NCBI GenBank assembly: GCA_017857855.1
Contig: JAFMCI010000013.1
Coordinates: 1 to 50,814, forward strand
Reading direction: 5' to 3'
DNA: 50,814 nucleotides
From: Bacteroidia bacterium
GTDB lineage: Bacteria; Bacteroidota; Bacteroidia; NS11-12g; UBA9320
This document shows positions 43,887-50,061 of this stretch, piece after piece. Under the pieces are notes generated by a model. That model had not been told where the DNA came from. It was given only the letters and a program-made list of their open reading frames with translations, and searched no databases. A program made the position numbers and the translations under genes. Within the stretch, counting starts at the first letter, position 1, and each line of letters begins with the position of its first letter.

Positions 43887-44703
43887 TAGCTGGCAATAGA
43901 GTAGAAAGTTGATCGATATCCTTATTTACAATGACATATACATATTCGAGGTTTCTGAAATTAGTAGCTGTTTTTACATGTGTAGTAAAGTATTGACTTG
44001 AATGAGACGTCTCTAATTTACTTATTTCACCGATCAATATACCCGCTGGAAATAATAATGAGGACTTACCAGTATACACCTTGTCTCCCACTTTAATTTC
44101 TTCTAGTTTATTCAGTCCTGTTATTTTTAAAGTTTGAGGATTAGCATTATCCCATTTCAAACCGGTGTAGTACTCCAGATTATTAATCGTTGGAATTACA
44201 TTCATATTGATATGAAGCAAAGACATAACAGAGCTATAATTCTCATTACTTTGTAATACGATGCCAGCCAGTCCTTGAGATGATATGACGCCCATGTTTT
44301 TTTGAATACCGTTTTTAATCCCTTTATTAATGATAAATATATTACTTGCTTTATAAACAGTATTATAAATAACCTCGGCGGGAATGACATCAAATAATTT
44401 ATGCCTTGAAGTATCACGTAAAGTAATGGTATCGTTCATAAAGGAAAGACTACTTCGAGCATCATTCTTAAACTGATTCGCCACTTGGGCCTGCAAAATA
44501 TTATTTTGTTGTTGAAGATCGAAGTAACCTGTCACCGTTGAAGACAACTGATTACTTTTATCGGTAAAAACAGCTGCAGAGTGCGTAAATGAAGCTTGCT
44601 GATAAGGGTTTAAGAAGAACAATAATACTGCACACATCATCTGCAATATTACAAACAGCATTATGTGTATGTTATGCTCTATAAACGCTATCAGGCGTTG
44701 CAT
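43879..44703 (-). CDS. mreC: Rod-shape-determining protein MreC
   Basis: 274 residues. A cytoplasmic start and one membrane helix (IMLFVILQMMCAVLLFFLN) lead to a coiled coil around LQQQNNILQAQVANQF. The periplasmic beta-barrel domains follow (AEVIYNTVYKASNIFIINKG, IKNGIQKNMGVISSQGLAGIV, VKTATNFRNLEYVYVI). MreC links MreB to the cell-wall synthases. The ATG overlaps the mreB stop by one base (cell-shape operon). Confidence 0.93.
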   Translation of the reverse strand: MQRLIAFIEHNIHIMLFVILQMMCAVLLFFLNPYQQASFTHSAAVFTDKSNQLSSTVTGYFDLQQQNNILQAQVANQFKNDARSSLSFMNDTITLRDTSRHKLFDVIPAEVIYNTVYKASNIFIINKGIKNGIQKNMGVISSQGLAGIVLQSNENYSSVMSLLHINMNVIPTINNLEYYTGLKWDNANPQTLKITGLNKLEEIKVGDKVYTGKSSLLFPAGILIGEISKLETSHSSQYFTTHVKTATNFRNLEYVYVIVNKDIDQLSTLLPAND

Positions 44704-45731
44704 TAGGACTGATTAAAAAGGGTTTTATGGTTTTTTATATCTTTCAACGCAATAGCAGTTCCCCTTACAACGGCTCTAAGTGGATCTTCAGCCACGTATA
44801 CAGGTAATTTTGTTTTGCTTGAAATCCGTTTATCCAATCCTCTAAGAAGTGCACCTCCACCAGTCAGATAGAGCCCTGTTTGATAAATATCAGCAGATAA
44901 TTCAGGAGGAGTTAGCTCTAACGCCTTCATAACTGCTTCTTCTATTTTAGATATTGATTTATCTAAAGCTAATGCTATTTCTGAATAAGATACCATAATT
45001 TGTTTTGGTATTCCTGTCATTAGATCTCTACCATTTACAGGACAATCCTCAGGTGGATTTTCAAGTTCTGGCAATGCTGCACCAACTTCTACTTTAATAA
45101 ACTCTGCGGTACGATCTCCAATCATTAGATTGTGTTGACGTCTCATATATTCTATGATATCATTTGTAAAATCGTCACCAGCTACGCGTATAGATTCGTC
45201 AGAAACGATTCCAGAAAGCGCTATTACGGCAATCTCTGTAGTACCTCCACCTATATCAATTATCATGTTTCCCATGGGTGCAGAAACATCGATACCTATA
45301 CCAATTGCCGCTGCCATCGGCTCAGGTATCATATAAACTTCTTTTCCACCTGCACGCTCGGCACTTTCTTTAACTGCGCGTTTTTCAACTGCAGTAATAC
45401 CACTGGGTATACAAATGACCATTCGTAATTGTGGACTACCAAAAGCAGATTTCTTATTTATCATTTTAATAAAATGACTAATCATTTGTTCGGCAGCTTC
45501 AAAATCTGCGATCACTCCATCTTTAAGCGGACGAATAGTCTTAATATCCTCGTGAGTCTTACCATGCATCTTTTGAGCCTCAGTACCCACCGCCAATATC
45601 TCACCCGTTCTTCTATTTCTTGCAATGATAGACGGCTCGTCTACCACCAATTTATCTTTATATATTATTAAGGTATTAGCAGTACCTAAGTCTATCGCTA
45701 ATTCTTGAGTTAAAAAGTTGAAAATTCCCAT
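44703..45731 (-). CDS. mreB: Rod-shape-determining protein MreB
   Basis: 342 residues. Bacterial actin that organises lateral wall growth. The phosphate-1 loop LAIDLGTANTLIIYKDK, the adenosine region MIIDIGGGTTEIAVIALSGI and the ATP-binding LYLTGGGALLRGLDKRIS are all present, along with PEPMAAAIGIG. The first gene of a six-gene minus-strand operon, with an exact -7 box 40 bases upstream. It begins MGIFNFLTQELAIDLG, giving the membrane-binding N-terminal helix. Confidence 0.98.
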   Translation of the reverse strand: MGIFNFLTQELAIDLGTANTLIIYKDKLVVDEPSIIARNRRTGEILAVGTEAQKMHGKTHEDIKTIRPLKDGVIADFEAAEQMISHFIKMINKKSAFGSPQLRMVICIPSGITAVEKRAVKESAERAGGKEVYMIPEPMAAAIGIGIDVSAPMGNMIIDIGGGTTEIAVIALSGIVSDESIRVAGDDFTNDIIEYMRRQHNLMIGDRTAEFIKVEVGAALPELENPPEDCPVNGRDLMTGIPKQIMVSYSEIALALDKSISKIEEAVMKALELTPPELSADIYQTGLYLTGGGALLRGLDKRISSKTKLPVYVAEDPLRAVVRGTAIALKDIKNHKTLFNQS

Positions 45732-45779: not shown

Positions 45780-45907
45780 CCTATTTTTTAAGTAAATTCT
45801 ATGCGGGATAGGGTAATTATAAGGAGTAATTAAAAAAACAAAGAGCCCTAATTAACTCTTTATCAAATCATAGGAATTCGAGAAGCTTTAAAACAACAGT
45901 TTGACAA

Positions 45908-45937
45908 TATAATTATCTGAATAAAGATAATTATATG
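45908..45937. promoter_or_regulatory. Operator-like inverted repeat upstream of the S24 regulator
   Basis: A perfect 12-bp inverted repeat (ATATAATTATCT / AGATAATTATAT) with a 6-base centre ends 12 bases before the -7 box at 45950. It would cover the expected -33 region, so binding there should block transcription. The most likely binder is the regulator encoded immediately downstream (autoregulation); this is inference. Confidence 0.6.
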
Positions 45938-45949
45938 ACCCAATTTTAT

Positions 45950-45957
45950 ATATTTGC
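45950..45957 (+). promoter_or_regulatory. -7 box of the S24 regulator gene
   Basis: TATATTTG is an exact TAnnTTTG match ending 6 bases before the ATG at 45964, predicting an almost leaderless mRNA. Confidence 0.6.
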
Positions 45958-45963
45958 AAAGTC

Positions 45964-46671
45964 ATGTATTTCGATCAAAACATAAAATTACTTCGGACAA
46001 AAAAAGGATACTCACAGCAAGACTTGGCCGATTCACTTAATCTTACACGCTCTAAACTAAATAGTTACGAACGAGGCGTTCAACCTCCATTTGATATTCA
46101 AATAGATATTGCAGATTATTTTAACGTAACACTTGACGGATTAGTTCGCCATGACCTTTCTAAACTCACACATTTTAAACTCTCACAAATATTAAAAGGA
46201 AGTGAAGCAGATGTTCGAGGCAGAAAACTACGTTTATTAACCGTAAGTGTAGATGCTAATGAAGATGAAAATATTGAAATAGTCAGCATGAAAGCACAAG
46301 CAGGCTATACCGGCGGATATGCTGATCCAGAATTTATCAGTAATCTACCGAAGTTTAAACTTCCTTTCTTACCTAAAAATAGAACTTACAGAAGTTTTCA
46401 AATAAAGGGAGACAGTATGCCTCCAGTAAGTGAGGGATCTTGGGTTACTGCAAGTTACTTGCAAGATTGGAACGACATAAAAGATGGAGAAAACTACATT
46501 GTCGTAACTAAAGACGAGGGAATTGTTTTCAAACGGCTATACAATAAGATAAAAAAAGAGCAAAGTATTACATTAGTAAGTACTAATAGCGCTTATGCTC
46601 CCTATACGTTGCACATCGACCAAGTAGTTGAAATTTGGAAATTTGAAACATGGAATGGGTTTGAGTTCTAA
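45964..46671 (+). CDS. XRE-family regulator with LexA-like S24 peptidase domain
   Basis: 235 residues. An N-terminal helix-turn-helix (residues 6-60: LLRTKKGYSQQDLADSLNLT, SYERGVQPPFD) is followed by a linker and an S24 autoprotease fold. The candidate cleavage pair is A113-G114 in MKAQAGYTGGY, the nucleophile S151 in IKGDSMPPV, and the lysine K190 in GIVFKRLY. Spacings of 38 and 39 residues are close to LexA. So it may cut itself when activated, for example after DNA damage, and release repression; whether it does is inference. A 12-bp-arm inverted repeat sits at its promoter. It is a single-gene unit divergent from mreB. Confidence 0.88.
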   Translation: MYFDQNIKLLRTKKGYSQQDLADSLNLTRSKLNSYERGVQPPFDIQIDIADYFNVTLDGLVRHDLSKLTHFKLSQILKGSEADVRGRKLRLLTVSVDANEDENIEIVSMKAQAGYTGGYADPEFISNLPKFKLPFLPKNRTYRSFQIKGDSMPPVSEGSWVTASYLQDWNDIKDGENYIVVTKDEGIVFKRLYNKIKKEQSITLVSTNSAYAPYTLHIDQVVEIWKFETWNGFEF

Positions 46672-46724: not shown

Positions 46725-46783
46725 ATACAAAAAGGCCTCGGTTTTCAAGCTATTAGTGAAACATATTCGAGGCCTTTTTGTAT
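46725..46783. terminator. Terminator between the S24 regulator and degP genes
   Basis: ATACAAAAAGGCCTCG (46725-46740) and CGAGGCCTTTTTGTAT (46768-46783) are perfect 16-bp arms around a 27-base loop that can partly pair (GTTTTCA with TGAAAC). It can serve both convergent genes. Confidence 0.85.
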
Positions 46784-46806
46784 AAATTCAAGCGCTATAT
46801 TGGTGA

Positions 46807-48472: not shown

Positions 48473-49036
48473 ATGTTTGGCTTAGGTAGTTTAAGTGATC
48501 AAGCCATCCTTGAGCGGATAAAACAGGGAGACGAATCCGTTCTCATTTTATTATATAGAAAACATTATGGTATGGTAAAAAACTTTATTCTAAAAAACAA
48601 CGGAGACGAATCCGTGGTTGATGATATAATGCAAGACACCATCATTGCGTTATGGAAAAATGCTAATAAGCCCGCATTCCTTTTGCAATCAAAGCTTAGT
48701 ACCTACGTACTTGCAATTTCAAAAAACCTATGGTTTAAAGAACTCAAGAAACGAAGTAAATTTAAACTAGTCGATGAAGCGAGCCACTTAAGCATTGGCA
48801 GTGAGAACCAAAAGGATAATTTTGATAAGGAAATAATTGCAGAAATGGTAAACGAGATGGACGAGACATGCAGAAAGCTTCTCTCTTACTTTTACTTTGA
48901 TGGTTATAGTACCAGATTAATTGCAGAAAAACTAAATTTTGCCAATGCCGACTCTGTAAAAAGTAAAAAATATCAATGTTTTAAGAAATTACAAGCCACG
49001 GTACTCGCAAGGTATAACAAAGCAGATTTAATCTAA
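48473..49036 (+). CDS. ECF-type RNA polymerase sigma factor
   Basis: 187 residues, normal for the family. Region 2 holds LYRKHYGMVKNFI, DDIMQDTIIALW (the core-binding D-x-x-Q-D-x-x motif) and STYVLAISKNLWFKELKK, which recognises the -10 element. Region 4 holds CRKLLSYFYFDGYSTRLIAEKLNFANADSVKSKK, here split by a variant helix-turn-helix for the -35. It probably pairs with the next gene, a membrane protein whose ATG overlaps its stop by one base (TAATG). The signal it responds to is unknown. Position next to degP suggests envelope stress, as an inference. Confidence 0.9.
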   Translation: MFGLGSLSDQAILERIKQGDESVLILLYRKHYGMVKNFILKNNGDESVVDDIMQDTIIALWKNANKPAFLLQSKLSTYVLAISKNLWFKELKKRSKFKLVDEASHLSIGSENQKDNFDKEIIAEMVNEMDETCRKLLSYFYFDGYSTRLIAEKLNFANADSVKSKKYQCFKKLQATVLARYNKADLI

Positions 49037-50061
49037 TGGAAGATCAAAAACGATATCATTTGATTGATAACTACCTTAGTGGAGATTTACAAGGTACGGA
49101 ATTAGATAAATTTAAAATTGCTCTAAAAAATTCAAAAGCGTTACGACAACAAGTTGCTCTTCAAAGTGCTGTGATTGATGAGATTTCTAAACATCGAGAA
49201 GCAGAACTTCGAGCAATAATAAGTAACGAAAACAGCTCTAGTCTAAAGACTATAAGTGTCAAATCAAATATAAGAACAGTTCTGAGCATGGCAGCATCTA
49301 TCGCCTTGTTTTTATTGACTTATATTTATTTTGTACAGGAGCAACCTACAAAAAACAATAAGTCGTTAACAGAGAAACAACCTACCGAAGTTAAAAGCAG
49401 TACAACGCTTAAAAAGAAAAAAGTAACTGCAAAAGAACCACCATTACTCGCTACAAATAAAATACCCGCACCAGAGATGGAAATGACAGTAGAAGAGTAC
49501 TCTGATTTTGATAATTTACTAGAAAAGGAATTATTGCCAACTGAAAATAATGCAGAAAGGGATGAAACAAAAGAGATTATAACTGCAAAGTCCGAAGAAT
49601 TTGTTGTGGAGCGTGACGAATTACTCGCCAGTAAAATTTTTTCTTTGCAGAGTTTGGATAACATAGTTAATAACACCTACGATGAGACAGGTTTAAAAGA
49701 GAATTCATTAAAAGCTACAACTAGTAAAGCCGTTAATAAGACGGAAATAACACTTGAAGATGCATCTGTACTAAAAAAAGACAAACAGAATACACCATCA
49801 GAGGAAATTAAAATCCCTCAAACTAAAAAATTAGATGTAGAATATTGGAAGAGTGTAGTAAATTTTAAAGGATATATCTATGATGGCAACAAAGTACAGC
49901 TTTATGGTATTCCTCAAAATAAACTTCTAATATTCAAAGAATTAGATAATAGAATTTACTTGAAAATGGATAGTAAGTACTACTTTATCGAAAAAAATAA
50001 AACCTATAAAAGACTTAGTGAGGTTTCAAATCCTACACTTTTAAACATATTAAATGACTAA
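49036..50061 (+). CDS. Putative membrane anti-sigma partner of the ECF sigma factor
   Basis: 341 residues; no clear family. A cytoplasmic N-terminal helical part (YHLIDNYLSGDLQGTELDKF, QQVALQSAVIDEISKHREAEL) is typical of anti-sigma factors. One membrane helix follows at residues 81-100 (TVLSMAASIALFLLTYIYFV). The long periplasmic segment is rich in K, E and T with low complexity (about 103-270). A folded C-terminal part has YWKSVVNFKGYIYDGNKVQL and IYLKMDSKYYFIEKNKTYK. The topology and coupling to the sigma gene suggest an anti-sigma or sensor. A zinc-binding HxxxCxxC motif is absent. It overlaps the dapF start by 8 bases. Confidence 0.7.
   Translation: MEDQKRYHLIDNYLSGDLQGTELDKFKIALKNSKALRQQVALQSAVIDEISKHREAELRAIISNENSSSLKTISVKSNIRTVLSMAASIALFLLTYIYFVQEQPTKNNKSLTEKQPTEVKSSTTLKKKKVTAKEPPLLATNKIPAPEMEMTVEEYSDFDNLLEKELLPTENNAERDETKEIITAKSEEFVVERDELLASKIFSLQSLDNIVNNTYDETGLKENSLKATTSKAVNKTEITLEDASVLKKDKQNTPSEEIKIPQTKKLDVEYWKSVVNFKGYIYDGNKVQLYGIPQNKLLIFKELDNRIYLKMDSKYYFIEKNKTYKRLSEVSNPTLLNILND

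Follow-up and report, generated by a model that had tools for sequence, protein, structure and literature searches.

The question raised by this locus is why a perfect inverted repeat should stand at the promoter of a gene for a LexA-like protein, and what the sequence that surrounds it would control. Within the window, i.e., the whole stretch of 50,814 nucleotides that was analysed, the arms of the repeat (45907-45918 and 45925-45936) are 12 nt each, separated by a 6-nt spacer and 100% complementary, in agreement with the perfect 12-bp repeat with N6 claimed in an earlier sequence-only reading. The -7 box that had been placed 12 bases from it was likewise recovered, as an exact TATATTTG at 45949-45956 of the forward strand, 12 bases past the repeat, which we take to be the -7 box of a Bacteroidota promoter type; the ATG of the regulator gene is at 45964. 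Five perfect inverted repeats (arms of at least 12 nt, spacer of 0-20) were found in the window in total, and eight Markov-1 control windows contained 0, 1, 0, 0, 0, 0, 0 and 0. By eye, the other four have G+C-rich stems between A/T runs and are terminator-like, the promoter repeat being the sole one of the five that is not. A terminator or RNA hairpin was also considered for the promoter repeat and rejected by reading, given that its arms are nearly all A+T, that no T-run comes after it and that the -7 box lies downstream. Elsewhere in the window, a hairpin whose stem contains GGCCTC, with A/T runs, was seen by reading at about 46725-46786, where the regulator and htrA genes converge, and is likely a bidirectional terminator; positions 48473-50061 encode an ECF-type sigma factor and then a 341-aa protein that matched nothing in Pfam or NCBIfam and may be its anti-sigma partner.

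When up to 3 mismatches were allowed, a single copy of the 26-base core of the repeat was found in the window, where shuffles predict 0.01. A search of the whole 2.2-Mb genome for the repeat, which the sequence-only reading had proposed, returned its own site and elsewhere just one further place, with 3 mismatches. The comparison with related genomes, also proposed there, showed that the repeat is not conserved in the form described: the inner half-sites, TTATC-N8-GATA, are present in 16/19 genus promoters, whereas perfect pairing over 12 bp with N6 is confined to the nearest relatives (L003/L001, L004 and L005), among which L005 carries a matched change in both arms.

The gene itself (45964-46671, forward strand) encodes a protein of 235 aa, the proposed SOS repressor, with an HTH_3 domain (PF01381; residues 7-60, 43.1 bits) and a Peptidase_S24 domain (residues 110-224, 36.9 bits), both above the Pfam cut-off. 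The residues previously picked out in this helix-turn-helix protein are as stated: the predicted scissile bond A113-G114 (46300-46305, forward strand) and the predicted catalytic Ser151 (46414-46416, forward strand) and Lys190 (46531-46533, forward strand) are each invariant in 40/40 aligned sequences, namely the regulator and 39 chosen homologues, down to 41% identity. The AlphaFold model of the regulator (mean pLDDT 80.4, pTM 0.62) was matched by Foldseek to LexA with an E of 3.7e-6; in VIA-align comparisons, residues 101-234 were superposed on Thermotoga LexA with 121 positions aligned (Z 13.5, rmsd 2.4), and residues 1-64 on the DNA-binding domains of ImmR and P22 c2 (Z 11.6 and 11.1, respectively). 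As modelled, the fold is LexA-like in its C-terminal part and CI-like in its N-terminal part, the predicted DNA-binding domain being CI-type and not LexA-type. With E. coli LexA, the protein shares the S24 fold (VIA-align Z about 12), the cleavage residues and the proposed SOS role, but LexA has the winged HTH PF01726 (PMC8565304, available part), and for our regulator neither a LexA_DNA_bind (PF01726) nor a lexA family match was returned by Pfam and NCBIfam at an E threshold of 0.001.

The regulator is single copy, and matches to it were found in 19/19 genus genomes (in G030 as two parts on different contigs) and in 28/38 family genomes (a weak HTH match only in G003). A canonical LexA elsewhere in the same genome was considered as a candidate and rejected, the regulator being the sole S24 protein found in this genome (98% complete), with no second one, neither LexA nor UmuD, detected.

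As judged from conservation, the unit preserved at the promoter is not the 12-bp repeat itself: it consists of two 15-bp palindromes, GAYAAT-N3-ATTRTC, whose inner halves form the arms of the repeat, so that the feature first noticed (45907-45936, forward strand) corresponds to the inner half-sites of both operators plus adjoining bases. The left operator, GACAATATAATTATC, lies at 45903-45917 (forward strand; PWM score 18.9), and the right one, GATAATTATATGACC, at 45926-45940 (forward strand; 14.7), 23 bp from the left one and over the expected -33 region. They are the only sites in the window scoring at least 13, and both belong to the training set of the PWM, a symmetrised matrix for which 15 regulator promoters supplied 21 distinct sites. 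When 20 upstream regions were aligned with MAFFT, the operators appeared as high-information columns, L021 being shifted; in 15 promoters anchored on the consensus, an anchoring that favours the operators in this comparison, the information per column amounts to 1.63 bits in the left operator, 1.62 in the right one, 0.88 in the 8-bp spacer and 0.45 in the 45-bp flank.

Both the anchored promoter analysis and the scoring of target genes imposed the 23-bp spacing or the consensus anchor, which biases them towards a pair; a rerun with the spacing left free (15-40 bp) agreed with them, the best and second-best sites being separated by exactly 23 bp in 19/19 regulator promoters (the training set). 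The strict pattern GAYAA-N5-TTRTC was found in the regulator's own promoter in 15/18 genus rows, and a strict double-site scan gave pairs in just 2/19 genus promoters, owing to degeneracy in the outer half of the right operator. Beyond the right operator, TAnnTTTG was found in 15/15 promoters examined, at a distance that varies from 0 to 9 bp; thus, the fixed 23-bp spacing is a property of the pair rather than of the promoter, as would be required for two repressor dimers side by side. The self-repressing, cleavable LexA-like switch that had been suggested for this gene is supported as a prediction by the homology, by catalytic residues that are invariant and by the conserved pair of operators that overlies the promoter.

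On its other side, the regulator gene has mreB as a divergent neighbour (44703-45731, reverse strand; Pfam MreB_Mbl, E 3.2e-128), an arrangement kept in 18/18 non-redundant genus rows. This conserved divergence would fit a regulator of the mre cell-shape operon, a reading that we regard as very improbable: the operators are some 170 bp away from the mreB start, on its upstream side, and, by reading, far from the mreB -7 candidate TACTTTTG (45779-45772), the gap between the regulator ATG and the beginning of the mreB match ranges from 131 to 349 bp, and homologues of similar length outside the genus are mostly beside another gene, being divergent from dinB in 19/24 rows (17 of them within 600 bp; one of the five non-dinB rows has just 170 bp of upstream DNA).

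The regulon and its trigger had been given as unknown in the sequence-only reading; an SOS regulon, with RecA-ssDNA as the trigger, can now be proposed, because the operator recurs at recN, dinB or umuDC, recA and a YegP-like gene. At recN, it was found at 13/14 loci with scores of 15.9-19.9, L179 being without a site (2.8); 16 rows had been found, from which L185 (start missing) and L187 (weak) were left out. A second recN site is weak or absent overall, with scores of 1.1 to 7.1 at 24 bp in 8/14 loci. All dinB loci (10/10) carry the operator (11.1-17.9), and with the spacing free the second site lies exactly 24 bp away in 10/10 (8.8-13.5). In L132, by reading, the dinB operator overlaps a TTG that is in frame with the ATG used and seven codons ahead of it. 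Six of the 16 IMS loci (L167-L172) correspond to umuC preceded by umuD, in genus genomes where no dinB was found; there, umuD has an S24 match in 6/6, and among the three scanned, UmuD was over the cut-off in 3/3 and UmuC was the best match, below the cut-off, in 3/3. GATAAT-N5-TATC precedes umuD in 6/6, with scores of 14.0-15.2 and no strong partner. The empirical p-values of the target-gene scores are inflated, as the background windows contain the operator itself.

At recA, the operator was found at 12/12 loci, over the ATG, with scores of 13.2-15.5 (three weak non-RecA rows were left out). We consider recA a weaker case than the other targets, with one site over the ATG and no partner, because 15 to 47 single sites scoring at least 13 arise per 2 Mb of random sequence. 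By reading, the operator in L139 overlaps the recA ATG. RecA (PF00154) was not found in 7/19 genus genomes, a point against the SOS reading; this set includes G028, which is 99% complete in about 10 contigs and has the regulator, umuDC and operators.

The occurrence of the operator at unlinked repair genes also bears on the origin of the regulator. A domesticated immunity repressor of a phage or mobile element, controlling itself only, would have a CI-type HTH, as found here, and an RstR-type NCBIfam match falls in the HTH region, below the cut-off; such a repressor would, however, hardly be expected as a single copy in 19/19 genus genomes, among housekeeping neighbours and divergent from mreB in every genus row, with its operator at unlinked repair genes, and we regard this origin as extremely improbable.

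Genome-wide, no operator enrichment was found, single sites being at control level. GAYAATNNNATTRTC with 1 mismatch occurs at 55 places in the genome versus 51 for the reversed pattern, GAYAATNNNNNTRTC gave 17 and 24 (forward and reverse) versus 17 and 16 in the control, and TTATC-N7-10-GATAAT gave 9 and 7 versus 9 and 11. Among the TTATC-N7-10-GATAAT places, a high-scoring operator is found at the regulator, recN and the YegP-like gene only; among places matching the GAYAATNNNNNTRTC pattern, to which scoring was applied, 9/39 score at least 13, namely the regulator, recN, dinB, recA, two at the YegP-like gene and three in coding sequence. Random sequence contained 15 and 47 single sites scoring at least 13 in 2.03 Mb (two models), and since random single sites are frequent, single sites alone prove little, and it is position, pairing and conservation that carry the argument. 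Pairs with both sites scoring at least 10 and 21-25 bp apart were absent (0 in 2.03 Mb) from simulations under each of the two models; in the genome itself, pairs with both sites scoring at least 10 were found at the regulator, the YegP-like gene and dinB. As a further control, the recN genes of 18 family genomes outside the genus gave a best operator score of 3.3; 19 genomes were searched, G012 being without recN, some of them lacking the regulator and others having a more distant one.

The top score among the pattern matches, 20.2, belongs to one of the three coding sites (C51:16278; L130:2279-2293), at the 5' end of a radical SAM gene of the PA0069 family, presumably COG1533/SplB, and splB is an SOS gene in PMC8565304; this site lies inside an open frame whose start codon is uncertain and was not counted as a target. 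The other two coding matches fall, by reading, in an MscS-like and a RimO-like gene.

The YegP-like gene (123 aa; L129:2444-2815, genome C50:39443-39814) was noticed through the operator pair that precedes it in the same genome, at C50:39354 and 39377. The gene was found in 17/19 genus genomes, with protein identities of 44-100%, and the pair is present in 17/17 (best site 13.6-21.2, second site 3.9-15.2), exactly 23 bp apart in all of them with the spacing left free and with sites that are not in the PWM training set; it is as well conserved as the pair at the regulator gene. A profile of the 17 sequences matched E. coli YegP (2k8e, E 3.9e-6) and SO_3888 (2k49, E 0.0017), and the structure model (mean pLDDT 72.6) gave Foldseek TM values of 0.78/0.82 to YegP and 0.75/0.78 to SO_3888, so that the profile and the model both match the double DUF1508-repeat fold of YegP; single-sequence Pfam matches to DUF1508 are weak (2/17 members, best E 0.0014). 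Compared with YegP/UPF0339/DUF1508 proteins, the 123-aa protein is thus alike in profile match and fold, but has 17% identity and adds an SOS-type operator pair and a C-terminal VA. Its variable tail ends in VA in 16/17, which may represent a protease tag, and at 4/17 loci a MATE transporter lies downstream within the flank examined. In the available part of PMC9501238, the one paper found for yegP together with LexA, yegP is counted as one of the stress hubs and is tabulated under DNA repair, and a literature search found no paper joining DUF1508 and SOS; the assignment of the 123-aa gene as an SOS gene, proposed here from sequence, is apparently new.

The targets also help to define the binding unit. 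The 30-bp repeat, with its TTATC-N8-GATAA core, could itself be the dimer site, the outer half-sites being incidental; its perfect 12-bp arms invite this reading, and the N8 distance between the inner half-sites is kept in the 16/19 genus promoters mentioned above, in 4/6 promoters of a second clade and in 10/31 promoters of L082-L112, most of which belong to the CTAA clade. We nonetheless judge it unlikely, as the outer halves are also conserved (see the left operator above), the unit tested in the related family is a dyad-N5-dyad (PMC8565304, available part), the dinB distance of 24 bp turns the inner halves into N9, and umuD (6/6) and recA (12/12) have one 15-bp site with no partner scoring at least 1 within 40 bp. 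The binding unit is most likely the 15-bp palindrome, present twice, rather than one 30-bp palindrome.

We consider it highly probable that the regulator is the SOS repressor of this organism, a non-canonical LexA with paired 15-bp operators that would repress itself and, upon cleavage triggered by RecA-ssDNA, release repair genes. The domains, the invariant residues, the operator pair with its conservation at several SOS promoters and the lack of another S24 protein among those found in the genome are observed in the sequences, and from them we infer binding, co-operation of the two sites, cleavage and damage induction. In the proposed mechanism, repressor dimers would bind the palindromes GAYAAT-N3-ATTRTC, and the two operators 23 bp apart would cover the -33 region of the regulator's own promoter, leading to self-repression; once DNA is damaged, RecA-ssDNA would induce the S151/K190 dyad to cut the protein's own A113-G114 bond, and expression of the regulator, recN, dinB (umuDC in some relatives), recA and the YegP-like gene would be released.

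A non-canonical LexA has been described as the SOS repressor of Bacteroidetes (Sanchez-Osuna et al. 2021, PMC8565304; cited here from the part of the article available), with members that bind such sites and whose genes are mitomycin-induced, although the recA gene of S. agarivorans was not induced. Its published targets include umuDC, recA, recN, dinB and splB, and, as in our regulon, two or more sites are reported in several promoters. With the CTAA-N5-TTAG group of that work, our regulator shares the CI-type HTH and S24 domains, the Ala-Gly and Ser-Lys residues, an N5-dyad palindrome in its own promoter and SOS genes under the same motif; it differs in its GATAA-N5-TTATC operator, in the absence of the C-terminal extension (235 versus about 260 aa), in its location beside mreB and in that it is the sole S24 protein found in its genome. 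Neither CTAA-N5-TTAG nor GGA-N5-TCC was found within 200 bp upstream in the genus (0/18 rows each), and the regulator was therefore filed in neither subgroup. The regulator of Elizabethkingia anophelis (TTAC-AAATT-GTAA) is comparable in having a diverged motif of the same geometry and in lying opposite an error-prone polymerase, as some relatives of our regulator do, but its sequence differs, and our genus has mreB, not dinB, beside the regulator (PMC8565304, available part). Since the testable features of the family were found, and the subgroup motifs and the C-terminal extension were not, we propose that the regulator is most likely a diverged member of the Bacteroidetes non-canonical LexA family, outside its two subgroups. 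The string "GATAAT" is absent from the main text of PMC8565304 as available, and its Table S10, on diverged palindromes, may list the motif.

Among the relatives, CTAA-N5-TTAG was found in 18/42 promoters of longer homologues and in 0/18 and 0/24 of the shorter ones. In a tree of 73 homologues, which includes many CTAA-motif homologues and was built without the PMC8565304 reference proteins and S24 outgroups, the rows with our motif (10) and the CTAA rows (19) each need one change (100/100); the GAYAA label was given only within a preset list of 13 rows, of which 10 bore it, and one longer homologue with the strict GAYAA pattern was left unlabelled, so that the clean separation is partly by construction. 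A middle group showed GATTA-N5-TAATC in 6/13 members examined versus 1/74 others, counting L026-L029, which are absent from the tree, and 5/6 of these GATTA-bearing promoters have two sites 23 bp apart. In the 235-aa clade outside the genus, a drifted pair at 23/24 bp was, by reading, the best or joint best in 7/10 promoters, among spacings of 22-24. Several CTAA-N5-TTAG homologues (L085, L088, L090, L104 and others) come from records titled Bacteroidales; in the available part of PMC8565304, neither motif group was found in the Bacteroidales.

In the sister genus g2 (G001), the regulator lies by dinB with a GAYAA-type operator, and none was found at recN (L235, score -5.5), as if the regulon had grown in our own genus. 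This history fits the published take-over model, with a diverged paralogue assuming control of the SOS regulon (PMC8565304, available part), the lost CTAA-type paralogue being putative; both the motif and the move from dinB to mreB are apparently new. A tentative and more far-reaching version, which we think less probable than not, is that a former dinB-side regulator became the sole SOS repressor of the lineage by moving to mreB, acquiring a new operator and taking over recN, recA and the YegP-like gene, with the YegP-like protein as a lineage-wide SOS effector, perhaps short-lived owing to its VA terminus, acting for instance in a damage checkpoint.

With these results, an unexplained repeat becomes an SOS circuit that can be tested, in a lineage of uncultured Bacteroidota, and the operators GATAA-N5-TTATC and GATTA-N5-TAATC, whose paired geometry recurs across clades, are added to a family with two main and some diverged motifs. 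The most interesting lead is the YegP/DUF1508-like protein, which is conserved, uncharacterised and likely a damage-response effector. If true, the proposed history would provide an example of the published model of a diverged paralogue taking over the SOS regulon.
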